The translations under genes were made by a program, and so were the position numbers. The notes beneath the pieces were generated by a model. That model searched no databases and was not told the DNA's origin. It saw only the letters and a program-made list of their open reading frames with translations. From Fibrobacterota bacterium (lineage in GTDB: Bacteria; Fibrobacterota; Fibrobacteria; UBA11236), in NCBI GenBank assembly GCA_019509785.1, contig JAEKLQ010000038.1, positions 8,446-72,445 of the forward strand: 64,000 bases of DNA, given 5' to 3'. This document shows, one piece after another, positions 26,972-32,636 of the stretch (position 1 is its first letter; each line of letters starts with the position of its first letter).

Positions 26972-26972
26972 A

Positions 26973-27058
26973 GGGTACAGGGTAAAGGGTTAAGGGTACT
27001 GAAAATGGAAGCAATCGCTCCTCTTAACCCTTTACCCTTTACCCTTTACCCTATACCC
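26973..27058. repeat. Inverted heptamer repeat array between parE and parC
   Basis: Four forward heptamers (GGGTACA, GGGTAAA, GGGTTAA, GGGTACT at 26973-27000) are followed by a 23-nt spacer and five inverted heptamers (TTAACCC, three TTTACCC, TATACCC at 27024-27058). A 16-bp perfect stem forms between 26979-26994 and 27023-27038. It fills most of the 135-nt gap between parE and parC and could be a cruciform, an attenuating hairpin or a dispersed intergenic repeat. Confidence 0.85.
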
Positions 27059-27093
27059 TGTTCCTAACCGAAGAAAAGACCCCGAAGGATAGA

Positions 27094-29085
27094 ATGGCAT
27101 CGAATACCCTGAAAGACCATCTCCCCCACGTCCAGGACATGTACAAGGAGTACTTCCTGGATTACGCGTCGTATGTGATAACCGATCGGGCCGTGCCGCA
27201 TCTGGCCGACGGCCTCAAGCCGGTACAGCGCCGCATCCTGCATTCCTTGCGCGAAGAAGAGGACGGGCGGTTCCACAAGGTCGCCAACATCATCGGGCAG
27301 ACCATGAAGTACCATCCCCATGGCGATGCGGCCATCGGCGATGCGCTGGTGAACCTGGGGCAGAAGAACCTTCTCATCGATACCCAAGGGAACTGGGGCG
27401 ATCCGGTGACGGGGGACTCCGCGGCAGCGGCGCGATACATCGAAACCAAGCTTTCCAAGTTCGCCTTGGAAGTGGCGTTCAACCCGGCCACCACCACCTG
27501 GCAGAGGTCTTACGACGGCCGCAACCTGGAACCGGTGCTCCTACCCATGAAGTTCCCGTTGGTCCTGGCCCAAGGCGCCGAAGGCATCGCCGTCGGCTTG
27601 GCCACCAAGATCGTCCCGCATAATTTTTGCGAACTCATCGAAGCCTGCATCGCGGTGCTCAAGAAAGAGAAATTCAAGCTGCGGCCGGACTTCCCCACCG
27701 GCGGCATCGTGGACGCCTCCAATTACAACGACGGCCAATCGGGCGGAAAGCTCAAGGTGCGCGCGCGCATCATCGAGGTCGATAACAAGACGCTGGCCAT
27801 CACCCAGATCCCTTACGGAACCACCACGGGCAGCCTCATCGACTCCATCGTGACCGCCAACGACAAGGGCAAGATCAAGATCAAACGCATCGAGGACAAG
27901 ACGGCCGCCAACGTGGATATCGTCATCCACCTTCCCCCCGGCGCCGAGCCGGAGAAGTCCATCGACGCGCTCTACGCCTTCACGGATTGCGAAACCTCCA
28001 TCTCGCCCAATTGCTGCGTCATCTTCGAGAACAAGCCCGTATTCCTGGGGGTCTCCGAGCTGCTGGAGCTTTCCGTGCAGGATACGGTCAAGCTCCTTAA
28101 GCAAGAACTGGAAATCCGCAAGCAGGACCTCTCGGAGAAGTGGCATTTCAAATCCTTGGAAAAGATCTTCATCGAGGAACGCATCTATCGGCAGATCGAA
28201 AAATGCGAGACCTGGGAAGCCATCATCGATACCATCGATAAGGGACTTAAGCCCTACCGCAAGCAATTCGTCCGCGACGTGACCGTGGACGACATCACCC
28301 GCCTCACGGAGATCCGCATCAAGCGCATCTCCCGCTTCGACGGCTTCAAGGCCGACGAGGAAATGATCGCCCTGCAAAAGGAAATCGGCGAGACCGAGAA
28401 GAACCTCAAGGGCCTTACCAGGTACGCCATTTCCTACTACGAGAACCTATTGTCCAAGTACGGCAAGGGCCGCGAGCGCAAGACCAAGATCGCCCGCTTC
28501 GACGATATCGACGCCGCCGAGGTGATCTTGTCCAACCTCAAGGTCTATATGGACCGCGAGAACGGCTTCGTGGGGACCAAGGTCTCGAACGGCGAACTGA
28601 TCGGGACGGATTTTTCCTCTATGGACGAGGTGATCGCTTTCAAGGAGGACGGAACCTTCGCGGTAACCAAGGTGGGCGAGAAGAATTTCGTGGGCAATAA
28701 GATCCTCTTCGCGGCCAAATTCGATCGCGCCGATGAGACGACGGTCTACAACATGCTCTACCGCGATGGCCGCGGCGGAAACCTGATGGCCAAGCGATTC
28801 CAAATCGGCGGCATCACCCGCGATAAGCAATACGATCTCACCAAGGGCAGCCCCCAGTCGAAGGTCTGGTATCTCGAGGTGCAGCCCGCGAAAATCTCGG
28901 ATAAGGTCATCGTCCATTTGGTGCCGCAACCCCGCATCAAGACCGAAATCCCCCTCAACTTCGAAGACTACGAGGTGAAGGGCCGCGGAACGAACGGCAA
29001 CATCGTCAGCCCGCATGCCGTTAAGCGGGTGGAACGAAAGACCAAGCTACCAGAGACGAATGATGAAAAGGGCGCCAAGAAATAG
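27094..29085 (+). CDS. parC: DNA topoisomerase IV subunit A (ParC/GyrA type)
   Basis: This 663-residue DNA cleavage and religation subunit is the partner of the upstream ParE. The winged-helix core has DYASYVITDRAVPHLADGLKPVQRRIL, the active-site Tyr in AAAARYIETKLS (about Tyr115) and the tower region. The quinolone-determining loop reads YHPHGDAAIGDALVNL, with Ala79 at the place of GyrA Ser83 and Asp kept at the Asp87 place. The C-terminal part has degenerate pinwheel repeats (GFVGTKVSNGELIGT, GGNLMAKRFQIGGITRDKQYDL) and no GyrA box (QRRGGKG), so ParC fits better than GyrA. It is shorter than E. coli ParC (752). The tail is Lys-rich. Confidence 0.92.
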   Translation: MASNTLKDHLPHVQDMYKEYFLDYASYVITDRAVPHLADGLKPVQRRILHSLREEEDGRFHKVANIIGQTMKYHPHGDAAIGDALVNLGQKNLLIDTQGNWGDPVTGDSAAAARYIETKLSKFALEVAFNPATTTWQRSYDGRNLEPVLLPMKFPLVLAQGAEGIAVGLATKIVPHNFCELIEACIAVLKKEKFKLRPDFPTGGIVDASNYNDGQSGGKLKVRARIIEVDNKTLAITQIPYGTTTGSLIDSIVTANDKGKIKIKRIEDKTAANVDIVIHLPPGAEPEKSIDALYAFTDCETSISPNCCVIFENKPVFLGVSELLELSVQDTVKLLKQELEIRKQDLSEKWHFKSLEKIFIEERIYRQIEKCETWEAIIDTIDKGLKPYRKQFVRDVTVDDITRLTEIRIKRISRFDGFKADEEMIALQKEIGETEKNLKGLTRYAISYYENLLSKYGKGRERKTKIARFDDIDAAEVILSNLKVYMDRENGFVGTKVSNGELIGTDFSSMDEVIAFKEDGTFAVTKVGEKNFVGNKILFAAKFDRADETTVYNMLYRDGRGGNLMAKRFQIGGITRDKQYDLTKGSPQSKVWYLEVQPAKISDKVIVHLVPQPRIKTEIPLNFEDYEVKGRGTNGNIVSPHAVKRVERKTKLPETNDEKGAKK

Positions 29086-29133
29086 CCCTCTCGGCCCCCG
29101 CCAGCCACCTCCAAGCACACGAATCGACCCGCA

Positions 29134-29160
29134 GAAATGAACTTTTCAAAAGTTCATTTC
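29134..29160 (+). terminator. Perfect 13-bp palindromic hairpin after parC
   Basis: Arms 29134-29146 and 29148-29160 pair perfectly, followed by a T-rich stretch (TATTTTATTT, then GGTTTTTGAG). It lies 48 nt after the parC stop. The stem is AT-rich, which is odd for this genome, but form and place fit an intrinsic terminator. Confidence 0.6.
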
Positions 29161-29192
29161 TATTTTATTTAGGTTTTTGAGTCTTTTATAAA

Positions 29193-29226
29193 CTCATAAA
29201 TAAAGTGATCTTATGAGGTTTTTTAC
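29193..29226 (+). terminator. Second hairpin with T-run in the AT-rich island
   Basis: CTCATAA (29193-29199) pairs with TTATGAG (29211-29217), then a G and six T. It forms a tandem terminator with the 29134-29160 hairpin, isolating parC from the lipoprotein cassette. Confidence 0.5.
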
Positions 29227-29263
29227 TGCTCTAAGTGAACTTTTTAAATCTTCTTTTTTATTT

Positions 29264-29269
29264 TATACT
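29264..29269 (+). promoter_or_regulatory. Candidate -10 element of the lipoprotein cassette
   Basis: TATACT stands at the downstream end of the AT-rich island, 70 nt before the lipoprotein start at 29339. The -35 region is only T-rich, so this is a weak proposal. The gene-free stretch 29086-29338 otherwise holds the two hairpins and repeated TGAACTTTT words at 29138 and 29236. Confidence 0.3.
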
Positions 29270-29338
29270 TCATATTTAGTTCGTTCTGGGGTATCTTCAG
29301 TGGGTTGGCGCCAATGTGGGCGCAATGGAAGGACCCCA

Positions 29339-30226
29339 ATGAAGAACGCATACCTGCTCGGACTGACGGCCGCGACGGCCACCCTTTTTACCGCCTGCCT
29401 GTTTTCCGGAGAAACCAATAACACGGGCCGCGCTTCGGTCGGCCTGGAGATCAAAGCCTCCGCTTCAACCTCGACCGGCGCGCTGGCGAAGGCGAGCGGA
29501 TTGATCTTGGGAGACACCGCCGGGGTTCACGTGGACCTCAGCGATGCCAAGCTGGTGATAAGCCGTATCAAGCTGGAATCCGAGAACGGTAGCGGCAGCT
29601 GCGACAGCACCGGCAATGTCCTCAAGAAGGAAGGTGAACCCGGCGACACCTCCGGCCGCGGATCCGAAGTCGAGAACGAAAAGGAAATGGAATGCGAAGA
29701 CGGGTCAGGCCTGGTGGTCATCGACCTCCTCACAGGCGTTTCTTCCCCCGACCTCGGCACCCTGAGCGTGCCCGCCGGCCTTTATAACGAGGTGAAGTTC
29801 GAGTTGCACCATGGGCAGAATGATTCCACCTTGGGCGGCCGCACCTTGGTGGCGCATGGCACCTTGACCTTGGCCGACGGTTCGAGCAAGCCGTTCTCCC
29901 TCGCCCTCACCCTGGACGAAAACCTGAAGATCAGGAGCGATTCGGGCCTGAATCTGAGCGCGGGCGCCCTTCAGACCGTGGCGGTGAAGCTGATGGCCGG
30001 CGATTGGCTTAAGGGCCTCGACTTATCCGCCTGCCTGAACGTCGTGGATCCCGCCGCCGCCTCCATCGATATTACCGAGGATTCCCCAGTCGGCAAATGC
30101 CTGGACGCCGAGCACCGCATCAAGGATAATTTCCGTTCGTCCTTCCACGCGGGCGAAAAGGACGAGCATGAGACGGAAGGAACGGAAAGCAAGGATTCCA
30201 CCGACGACTCGGGAAAGACGAAGTAA
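29339..30226 (+). CDS. Lipoprotein with DUF4382-like domain
   Basis: This 295-residue exported lipoprotein has signal and lipobox in LTAATATLFTAC (Cys about residue 20). The mature part has a beta-sandwich pattern like DUF4382: VHVDLSDAKLVISRIKLES, LVVIDLLTGVSSPDLGTLSVPAGLYNEVKFELH, then a second strand-rich half ending in GDWLKGLDLSACLN. It carries acidic low-complexity segments (EVENEKEMECEDGSG and a Glu/Asp/Lys-rich C-terminal tail of about 35 residues) that may bind cations or reach outward. GGAAGGA lies before ATG 29339; an in-frame start at 29213 inside the AT island is rejected because it would bury the signal peptide. It is followed by the TIGR02147 regulator and a similar lipoprotein. 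Function unknown. Confidence 0.75.
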   Translation: MKNAYLLGLTAATATLFTACLFSGETNNTGRASVGLEIKASASTSTGALAKASGLILGDTAGVHVDLSDAKLVISRIKLESENGSGSCDSTGNVLKKEGEPGDTSGRGSEVENEKEMECEDGSGLVVIDLLTGVSSPDLGTLSVPAGLYNEVKFELHHGQNDSTLGGRTLVAHGTLTLADGSSKPFSLALTLDENLKIRSDSGLNLSAGALQTVAVKLMAGDWLKGLDLSACLNVVDPAAASIDITEDSPVGKCLDAEHRIKDNFRSSFHAGEKDEHETEGTESKDSTDDSGKTK

Positions 30227-30277
30227 AGGAACCCTGACGGCCGAGCCCGGCCCGGCTATCTTATACCAAGACCGACC

Positions 30278-31150
30278 ATGCAGAAACCCGATATCTTCGC
30301 CTACCTGGATTACCGCAAGTACCTCCGGGACGCGTTCGAAGCGATGAAAGCGGCGGCCCAAGAGGGCCGGGCGGCCCAAAAAGGCGGTGCGAAGATCAGC
30401 TATCGCTCCTTCGCGAAAGAGGCCGGGTACTCCTCCCCCAACCTGTTGCAGTTGATTTTAGCCGGGGAGCGCGATCTGGCTCCCGCCCACGTACCGGGCA
30501 CGGTTCGGGCCCTTAAGCTGAATAAGCAAGAAACGGAATTCTTCGCCGACCTGGTCGCCTTCGATCGCGCCGAAGGTTTCGATGAAAAGACCTTCCACTA
30601 CCAGCGCATGTTGCGCTCGCGCCGGCATGCCGAGGCGCGTCCCATCGAAAAGGGGCAATTCGAATACCTGGAGCAGTGGTACCATCCCGTGGTCCGGGAA
30701 CTCGTGGCGCATCCTGAATTCGACGGGACGCCGGAGTGGATCGCCGGGCGCGTGCATCCCCGCATCACTCCCGCGCAGGCGGAAAAATCCCTTCTGTTGC
30801 TGGAGCGGCTGGGAATGATCCGCCGCGATGGCGCCGAGGGCAAACTCGTCCAATCCGATGCGCAGATCAGTACGGCGCCCGAGGTGGCCTCGCTTGCGGT
30901 GGCCAACTACCATCGTTCCGTACTCAAGCTCGCGGAAAGCTCCATCGAATCCTTCGACGGGGACCAACGCGATTTACGGGCCGTAACCTTGGGGATCCCC
31001 AAGGACAAGTTCCCCGAATTGAAGCGAAAGCTGGAGGCGTTTTGGCGGGAGATCCTGGATCTGGCCGCCGGAGCCGGACCGGTGGAAGAAGTCTACCAAA
31101 TCAACCTGCAAGCCTTCCCCCTCACCCGGCCCGAGGCTCCCCATGCGTAA
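30278..31150 (+). CDS. TIGR02147-family putative DNA-binding regulator
   Basis: This 290-residue protein was recognised from IFAYLDYRKYLRDAFEAMKA at the N-terminus, ISYRSFAKEAGYSSPNLLQLILAGERDL (a lambda-repressor-like HTH), LNKQETEFFADLVAFDRA and FEYLEQWYHPVVRELVAHPEF. These are hallmarks of the TIGR02147 (DUF4423-containing) family, which is expanded in Fibrobacter. The C-terminal half resembles a winged-helix/sensor region (AEKSLLLLERLGMIRRDGAEGKLVQSD) and the conserved end KDKFPELKRKLEAFWREIL. It starts 51 nt after the first lipoprotein, and its last 8 nt overlap the start of the second, so the three are co-transcribed. It probably regulates this cassette or surface genes; no direct evidence. 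Confidence 0.85.
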   Translation: MQKPDIFAYLDYRKYLRDAFEAMKAAAQEGRAAQKGGAKISYRSFAKEAGYSSPNLLQLILAGERDLAPAHVPGTVRALKLNKQETEFFADLVAFDRAEGFDEKTFHYQRMLRSRRHAEARPIEKGQFEYLEQWYHPVVRELVAHPEFDGTPEWIAGRVHPRITPAQAEKSLLLLERLGMIRRDGAEGKLVQSDAQISTAPEVASLAVANYHRSVLKLAESSIESFDGDQRDLRAVTLGIPKDKFPELKRKLEAFWREILDLAAGAGPVEEVYQINLQAFPLTRPEAPHA

Positions 31151-31973
31151 CCTACGCGCTACCTTGTCGGCGGGCATCCTTTGCGTCCTCTTGTGCGGCT
31201 GCATCTTGGATCGCACCGCGGGTGGGACCGGCGTCGGCAACCCCACCAAGGGAACGGTCACCGTCGCCATGGTGGCCCTGGATTCCGCCCCGGTCGCGAA
31301 GGCCGCCGCCAAGGCGGCAGCCATGACCCGCAATCCCGACGGCTCCTTCGATATCCGCGATGCGGGCGGAAGCGTTTTCACGGTGAAGACGGGATATGCC
31401 AACGTGGGCCGCATCCGCATCGCCCTGCCCGACGGGGTCGACTGCTCCCAGGCCGACGAAACCGCATGCGAATCGGGAGAAGCGACCATAGACGGTCCCT
31501 GGGTCTCCGATCTCATGACCGGCAAATGGATCCCGGATCCCGGCACTGTACGCATGCCGTTGGGGGTTTATAAGCGCCTGGAAGTAAGACTGGAGTCCCA
31601 AGATAAGGTGGCCGCGGGGGCCCCCGATCTGGGCCGCCACAGCCTGGTCTTCGGGGGAACCTTTTCCTGGTCGGGTCGCGCCGATAGGCCTTTTACCGTG
31701 GCCTTGGACTTCGACGAGGACGAGCGCTTCGAATCGCCCGCCGGCTTCGCCGTGGCCGAAGGAAGCACGACCATCACGGTGGCCTTGGATATCGCCCGCT
31801 GGCTGTCGCAAGCCAACCTTACGGCCTGCCTGGAGAACGGATCCCTGCCGCTGGACTCCACGGGCGGATTCGCCTTCGAGAAGGACGGCGGTTGCGGCGT
31901 CGAGCAAGAAATGAAGGATGCCGTCAAGGCTTCCGGGACCGTGAGCGGGAAGCACGAGGGCGACGGCCCCTGA
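31143..31973 (+). CDS. Lipoprotein with DUF4382-like domain (second of cassette)
   Basis: This 276-residue exported lipoprotein has lipobox VLLCGC (Cys about residue 20) followed by TAGGTGVGNPTKGTVTVAMV, a start seen often in Fibrobacter-type lipoproteins. The body follows the plan of the first lipoprotein: a Cys pair loop (DCSQADETACESG), WVSDLMTGKWIPDPGTVRMPLGVYKRLEVRLES (the 'DLLTG...LPAGxYxxVxxxL' pattern), FTVALDFDEDERFESPAGFAV, then DIARWLSQANLTACLENG near the end. The start overlaps the regulator stop by 8 nt. The two lipoproteins are diverged paralogues in architecture. Function unknown; it may sit on the outer membrane surface. Confidence 0.75.
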   Translation: MRNLRATLSAGILCVLLCGCILDRTAGGTGVGNPTKGTVTVAMVALDSAPVAKAAAKAAAMTRNPDGSFDIRDAGGSVFTVKTGYANVGRIRIALPDGVDCSQADETACESGEATIDGPWVSDLMTGKWIPDPGTVRMPLGVYKRLEVRLESQDKVAAGAPDLGRHSLVFGGTFSWSGRADRPFTVALDFDEDERFESPAGFAVAEGSTTITVALDIARWLSQANLTACLENGSLPLDSTGGFAFEKDGGCGVEQEMKDAVKASGTVSGKHEGDGP

Positions 31974-32000: not shown

Positions 32001-32636
32001 TTAAGGCAATTTGCGGACGACCTGCAACCCGTCGCGCACCGTCAGCAGCACGTTCTCCACCCGCGCGTCCGCGGCGATGCGCCGATTGACCGCGTCGATG
32101 GCGCGGCTTTCGCCGTCCCGGGGTTCCAATACCTGGCCTGACCATAAAGTATTGTCCACGAGGATCAACCCGCCCGGCCGGATCAACTCCACGATGCGTT
32201 CGTAATAAGCGGGGTAATTCGACTTGTCCGCATCGATGAAGGCCAGATCGAACGGCCCGGGGAGGGTGGCCAAGGTTTCCAAGGCCGGTCCCATGCGGAT
32301 CTTGATCTTGCGGCCATGCGGGCTGCGATCGAAGTAGCGTTGCGCCATGTCCGCATGGGCCTTTTCGATCTCGCAGGTGATCACGCGGCCGTCTTCGGGC
32401 AGGCCCTCCGCCAGGGATAGGGCGGAATATCCCGTGAAGGTTCCGATCTCCAGCACTTGCTTGGCGCCCGATACCGCGGCCAGCAGCTTCAGGAACCGCC
32501 CTTCCAGACGTCCGGTCAGCATTTGCGGCGACTGCATGCTGGCGTAGGTCTCATCCGCCAGGGCCCTGAGCAATTCCGGCTCCGGCCGGGTGCGATCGAA
32601 TGCGTATTTCTCCAGCTTCCCGTCGACGATATCCAT
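32001..32636 (-). CDS. SAM-dependent O-methyltransferase (class I, caffeoyl-CoA type)
   Basis: This 211-residue cytosolic Rossmann methyltransferase has SAM-binding motif I VLEIGTFTGYSALSLAEGLP, an acidic second motif (VITCEIEKAHADMAQRYF) and the metal-dependent COMT signature DLAFIDADKSNYPAYYE, with LVDNTLWSGQV after it. The family methylates catechol-like hydroxyls using a divalent metal. The ATG has GGGAGG just upstream. It is the last gene of a minus-strand series with dtd (26 nt apart). The small-molecule substrate is unknown. Confidence 0.9.
   Translation of the reverse strand: MDIVDGKLEKYAFDRTRPEPELLRALADETYASMQSPQMLTGRLEGRFLKLLAAVSGAKQVLEIGTFTGYSALSLAEGLPEDGRVITCEIEKAHADMAQRYFDRSPHGRKIKIRMGPALETLATLPGPFDLAFIDADKSNYPAYYERIVELIRPGGLILVDNTLWSGQVLEPRDGESRAIDAVNRRIAADARVENVLLTVRDGLQVVRKLP

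Follow-up and report, generated by a model that had tools for sequence, protein, structure and literature searches.

A TIGR02147 regulator and its coupled lipoprotein as a probable member of an expanded family of regulator-lipoprotein modules in Fibrobacterota

Dedicated regulation of surface proteins is a recurrent theme in Bacteroidota, in which Sus-like/PUL and ECF-sigma/FecR loci occur as many paralogous loci, each with its own regulator for the surface proteins. For the N-terminus of the regulator described here, the comparison class is formed by the HTH repressors of the XRE/Cro-HigA type. Fibrobacterota include leading rumen cellulose degraders. In the genome paper of Fibrobacter succinogenes S85, few regulators were recognised near the cellulase genes. 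In the envelope of this strain, lipoproteins with carboxypeptidase-regulatory-like domains were measured at lower levels on cellulose than on glucose (PMC6851124). The lipoprotein export signal (LES) of Bacteroidota is a short signal that adjoins the lipid cysteine of envelope lipoproteins (PMC5080379). TIGR02147 (Fsuc_second) is catalogued as a family of paralogues, with no function assigned. The literature searched, which misses most subscription journals and does not thereby prove novelty, contains no mention of TIGR02147 and no description of regulator-lipoprotein modules, and DUF4423 appears in one paper only, as a table entry in Bdellovibrio. To the known family, we add the pairing with a lipoprotein, a tag common to the partner lipoproteins and upstream DNA elements that are specific for each module.

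The window, i.e., the whole 64,000-nucleotide stretch of Fibrobacterota DNA that was analyzed, contains three genes that form one cassette, at the coordinates previously assigned to them in a sequence-only reading (Table 1). The middle gene was rightly recognised as TIGR02147 (E 6e-72; 242 bits against a cut-off of 50, with positions 2-271 of the 272 in the model covered) and belongs to DUF4423 as well (Pfam PF14394; E 2.4e-41; 141.7 bits against a cut-off of 30). Its overlap with the downstream lipoprotein gene indeed amounts to 8 nt (31143-31150). A parC/gyrA-like gene (27094-29085) flanks the cassette upstream, and an O-methyltransferase-like gene on the minus strand (32001-32636) converges on it from downstream. 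Two matches below the cut-off, HrpB4 for the regulator and FAD_binding_4 for L2, were judged to be due to chance. Between a parE-like gene and the parC-like gene, at 26972-27059 of the window, a telomere-like heptamer (AAGGGTA / TTTACCC) forms arrays in head-to-head orientation. The 19-base pattern of this array has 187 matches in the genome with at most two mismatches, compared to one for the reversed control, and the matches are often inverted pairs, 50-100 bp apart.

Table 1. Features of the cassette and its upstream region (positions in the window).
Feature	Position	Strand	Description
AT-rich putative promoter/operator region	29086-29338	+	between parC stop and start of L1; top 6-mer TGAACT/AGTTCA
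Distal inverted repeat AGAAATGAACTTTTCAAAAGTTCATTTCT	29133-29161	.	holds half-sites TGAACT and AGTTCA; may also serve as parC terminator
Proximal TGAACT half-site	29236-29241	+	98 bp from the distal one; present in the window, L130 and L132; TGAATT in L133
Conserved GGGGTATCTTC block, putative -10 region	29288-29298	+	conserved in the orthologous upstream alignment
L1, upstream lipoprotein	29339-30226	+	295 aa, lipid Cys20; weakly DUF4382-like, without the conserved tag
TIGR02147/DUF4423 regulator	30278-31150	+	290 aa; HTH-like around residues 42-62, DUF4423 domain 115-282
L2, coupled downstream lipoprotein	31143-31973	+	276 aa, lipid Cys20; first 8 nt overlap the regulator gene
Post-lipobox tag region of L2 (AGGTGVGNPTK)	31218-31250	+	tag score 18.0; common to partner lipoproteins

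The two lipoproteins share a general plan, as had been proposed, and they are homologous rather than unrelated according to both BLASTP (E 6e-18; 35% over 136 aa) and an alignment of 15 sequences comprising their orthologues and paralogues. The motifs LxTG, PxGxY and WLxxxxLxxCL are present in both, with P139, G141, Y143, W220 and C229 as their invariant residues. Throughout the alignment, Cys20, the cysteines at 101, 109, 229 and 251, PxGxY and W220 are kept. L1 and L2 are lipoproteins based on their lipobox sequences, FTAC and LCGC, respectively, and on Cys20, which is invariant in the 15 sequences. Of the DUF4382 likeness, only a weak match of L1 below the Pfam cut-off is left (E 0.016; 15.9 bits against 25), as L2 gives no hit. 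The AlphaFold model of L2 is confident (pLDDT 83) and shows a mostly beta fold.

The genome from which the window originates (5.4 Mb, 106 contigs) encodes 34 full-length TIGR02147 genes; the automatic list of 36 regulators counts two of them twice. The surroundings of all 34 loci were analyzed with genes predicted by a simple codon model and lipoprotein signals by a simple lipobox rule. A lipoprotein gene lies directly downstream on the same strand in 33 of the 34 cases; the automatic rule identifies 31 of these and inspection by eye the other two. Among 701 non-regulator genes from 856 kb of this genome, 39 (5.6%) are followed by a lipoprotein gene in this way. With the automatic count of 31, the binomial p is about 6e-36. 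The median gap between both genes is -4 nt, and a 4-nt ATGA overlap is the commonest arrangement. One full-length regulator (L063; C25:170753-171592) has no downstream lipoprotein, and a peptidase-like gene follows 350 bp further on. Across the phylum Fibrobacterota, TIGR02147 is carried by 157 of 168 genomes, with 23-84 matches per genome in the genus of the window. In Fibrobacter, the pair was seen by reading in all 30 best loci and in 28 of 28 testable loci in a later count. When each genus is represented by one genome, 15 of the 27 testable loci are paired by the automatic rule and about nine others have a tagged lipoprotein by eye, which brings the count to about 24. A second phylum was entered through a single-protein scan of named genomes that led to two MAG loci, whose titles ('Deltaproteobacteria', 'Nitrospira') we do not trust as taxonomy. 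In this phylum, TIGR02147 is present in 37 of 46 genomes and the pairing in 27 of 34 loci by the automatic rule, or about 30 by eye. The expectation of a repeated association beyond chance is thus borne out in this genome, across the phylum and beyond, which supports the idea of a widespread, dedicated regulator-lipoprotein module. In the genera g21 and g31, all eight genomes analyzed of one genus and both of the other lack TIGR02147, although their relatives have many; they represent a natural loss that can be used for comparing lipoprotein content. On the Bdellovibrio plasmid pBdHAGR1 (L192:2995-4547), a DUF4423-type gene shares 4 nt with the gene of a protein that is exported but not lipidated. 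Judging from this pair, the coupling may go back even further, unlike the lipid anchor.

A regulator flanked by a pair of lipoproteins, as had been put forward, is real at this locus, but the general unit is a regulator with one downstream lipoprotein. The three-gene form is kept in the same-genus loci L130, L132 and L133, while L131 ends at a contig edge, and the L130 and L133 cassettes again have parC on one side and the methyltransferase gene on the other. An upstream lipoprotein likewise occurs in a sister paralogue group (L142-L145), but it is of a different, shorter kind. The flanking upstream lipoprotein is a variant of this genus and, with another lipoprotein, of the sister group. L145 comprises two regulator-lipoprotein cassettes in tandem on the same strand. 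Within the genome of the window, regulators and partner lipoproteins co-diversify (Mantel rho 0.45, p 0.001), a correlation that can arise from linkage without functional interaction. The lipoproteins diverge faster than their regulators, as is expected for surface proteins.

Upstream of the cassette, an AT-rich island and two hairpins had been noted. Of these, the island and the first hairpin (14-bp arms) are confirmed, whereas the second one (29193-29217, 7-bp arms) is not conserved. The first hairpin scores as terminator-like and also holds two copies of the TGAACT element; together with its T-run, it is kept in L130 and L133. In an unbiased 6-mer count over four orthologous upstream regions, TGAACT/AGTTCA is the top word with 12 copies for 0.36 expected, copies that are not independent across orthologues because these share ancestry. 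Its log-likelihood ratio (LLR) is 30.4, while the values of 60 simulated sets do not exceed 9.7, and TGAACT is absent from the 6.2 kb upstream of other cassettes. A scan of the upstream region with the sigma-70 consensus found no promoter, and no Rfam element was found in the region. The sister group has other top words, namely TGAATC and the 7-mer TGAATCA (nine copies, 0.38 expected), and three of the five regions have TGAATCA placed alike, at about -194 and -105. For Fibrobacter, the repeated word is GTGTTC, seen in 9 of 9, 6 of 6 and 3 of 3 regions of three related groups that span several genera. As a prediction test, two other cassettes with repeated words were compared to their orthologues. 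GCTTAC occurs at -180, -81 and -70 in the genome of the window and at -184, -84 and -73 or -181, -83 and -72 in two orthologues. For the other cassette, the literal prediction failed, as the exact word GTTCTCA is absent from the orthologue; GCTCTCA is present instead at both places (-177 and -76 versus -174 and -77). Such a concerted change of separate copies is as expected for a site that is read by one protein. Each closely examined regulator group has its own repeated upstream element (TGAACT, TGAATCA, GCTTAC, G[TC]TCTCA or GTGTTC). Genome-wide, the signal is modest: repeated upstream 7-mers are slightly enriched (8 of 34 versus 38 of 368, p 0.028; p 0.16 with another statistic), palindromes are weakly enriched upstream of all cassettes (p 0.008, confounded by terminators), and the spacing of roughly 98 bp, which several cassettes share, shows no enrichment over the whole set.

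The predicted structure of the regulator has a pLDDT of 91.8. No PDB structure matches it at E < 0.001, and the best weak matches are mostly winged-helix proteins. At the profile level, residues 28-72 weakly match the HTH of HigA antitoxins (E 0.075) and residues 126-184 metal-dependent winged-helix regulators, while HTH_31 is matched by five of 33 paralogues (best E 6.6e-4). Among the 141 positions that are fixed in five orthologues, residues 58 and 59, in the HTH-like part, rank second and third in variability between paralogues. This is the pattern expected for DNA specificity, and both residues presumably lie where the recognition helix contacts the bases, based on our own alignment to the 434 repressor. 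In an alternative reading, the regulator acts in trans, globally or across modules, and its adjacency to a lipoprotein gene merely reflects joint duplication and co-expression. Linked genes co-duplicate anyway, the Mantel correlation is moderate and a clear repeated element is missing before many of the cassettes. Nonetheless, the different elements directly upstream of the own cassette of each orthologue group examined, the absence of TGAACT upstream of the other cassettes and the differing recognition-helix residues of the paralogues make a trans-acting role, be it global or across modules, unlikely.

The partner ectodomains are varied. CarboxypepD_reg is the commonest domain (30 of 70 partners), next to SdrD_B, SpaA-like, DUF2341, laminin-G, LRR, Kelch and CHB_HEX_C, and many partners match no domain at all. 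A DUF4382-like partner is not the general rule, since most partners are of other kinds; their common feature is a tag, G-G-[TS]-[ED]-x-[GE]-N-[PT], which closely follows the lipid cysteine. In an unsupervised alignment of the 70 partners, only the lipid cysteine and the following GG-x-TE-x-GN are conserved. A motif of width eight learned from other genomes, [GT][GV][TS][ED][TV][GE]N[TPG], mostly occurs 3-15 residues past the cysteine, with a log-likelihood of 497 compared to 139 for shuffled sequences. Applied to the held-out genome of the window, it separates the partners from 62 other predicted lipoproteins (AUC 0.86, p 7e-9); the tag is not seen in these 62 and is confined to the regulator-coupled ones. 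L1 scores -4.4 despite an outer domain homologous to that of L2, which indicates that the tag tracks being the gene coupled to the regulator. The stretch SGETNN of L1 was considered as a copy of the tag and rejected, given its score and its absence from the orthologues. The tag is too degenerate to be searched for at the DNA level; a strict nucleotide pattern hit no more than four places. The shortest partners (92-103 aa) comprise little beyond the lipobox, the tag and low-complexity sequence. The downstream lipoproteins of L214 and L216 carry the octapeptide in tandem (GGSEVGNP, GGSDFGNP). We take the tag as a putative functional element.

One possible function is feedback: in the cytoplasm, the regulator would bind the lipoprotein before its processing, or bind its tag, and thereby gauge export of the lipoprotein or the need for it. 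A tag that is restricted to coupled lipoproteins and missing from L1, the tandem copies, the short partners that are recognisable only by lipobox and tag, and the tight translational coupling would all fit such a sensor. Yet, a signal for surface export or modification would explain the tag equally well, and a tag common to all modules cannot by itself give module-specific feedback, so we consider this reading improbable. A toxin-antitoxin, immunity or defence unit, suggested by the weak HigA likeness and by a small HTH protein beside an exported one, is very unlikely and was rejected, as none of the three proteins matches a PADLOC model at E 0.01, the partners are lipoproteins with domains of adhesion or carbohydrate-binding type, and the chromosomal position is conserved within the genus.

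The most economical model, and the one we favour as probably correct, is that of an expanded paralogous set of autoregulated modules with one regulator and one envelope lipoprotein each, of which this cassette would be a member. It builds on the pairing, the gene overlap, the tag, the co-diversification, the group-specific elements and the variability of the recognition helix. The TIGR02147/DUF4423 protein would be a cytoplasmic one-component regulator, whose HTH-like N-terminal domain most likely binds the repeated element before its own operon; here, these would be the TGAACT half-sites about 98 bp apart, possibly with looping of the DNA between them. It would control itself and the translationally coupled lipoprotein, by either repression or activation, and the DUF4423 domain, predicted as a winged helix with additional helices, would receive the input signal, presumably a ligand. 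The lipoprotein would be exported, lipidated and anchored via a tether that bears the GG[TS][ED]xGN[PT] tag, so that its fast-changing ectodomain may bind or display something at the envelope. The lipoprotein may be located at the surface, and the role in surface display or sensing that had been suggested for the module may hold. A broader version, to which we give somewhat less than even chances, is a phylum-wide surface-protein repertoire of tens of regulators per genome with private operator codes and one tagged lipoprotein each, in which the undescribed octapeptide, shared with at least one other phylum, would act as a module-specific signal for sorting, modification or feedback. The pairing gives the large, unexplained TIGR02147 family a testable job. 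Should every member have private control over a single envelope lipoprotein, then the sequence would reveal the envelope repertoire as regulator, target and DNA word. The common tag is a concrete target for mutation.

Several described systems resemble parts of this module. Like the LES of Bacteroidota (PMC5080379), the tag is short and lies beside the lipid cysteine of envelope lipoproteins, but it reads GG[TS][ED]xGN[PT] instead of a Lys/Asp/Glu-type signal right after the cysteine, and it is restricted to regulator-coupled lipoproteins. By fold, L2 is closest to the six chains of MbnP (PDB 7l6g; E 3e-4 to 5e-3), yet we do not claim membership because the TM-score is only about 0.3; an MbnH-type partner does not adjoin L2 either. 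The regulator has an HTH-like region where an HTH is expected from XRE/Cro-HigA repressors, although its match to them does not reach significance and it carries DUF4423 as an additional domain. Compared to the Sus-like/PUL and ECF-sigma/FecR loci, the module has no TonB receptor, sigma factor or anti-sigma factor, and consists of one cytoplasmic one-component regulator and one lipoprotein; like them, it occurs in numerous paralogous copies that each devote a regulator of their own to surface proteins.
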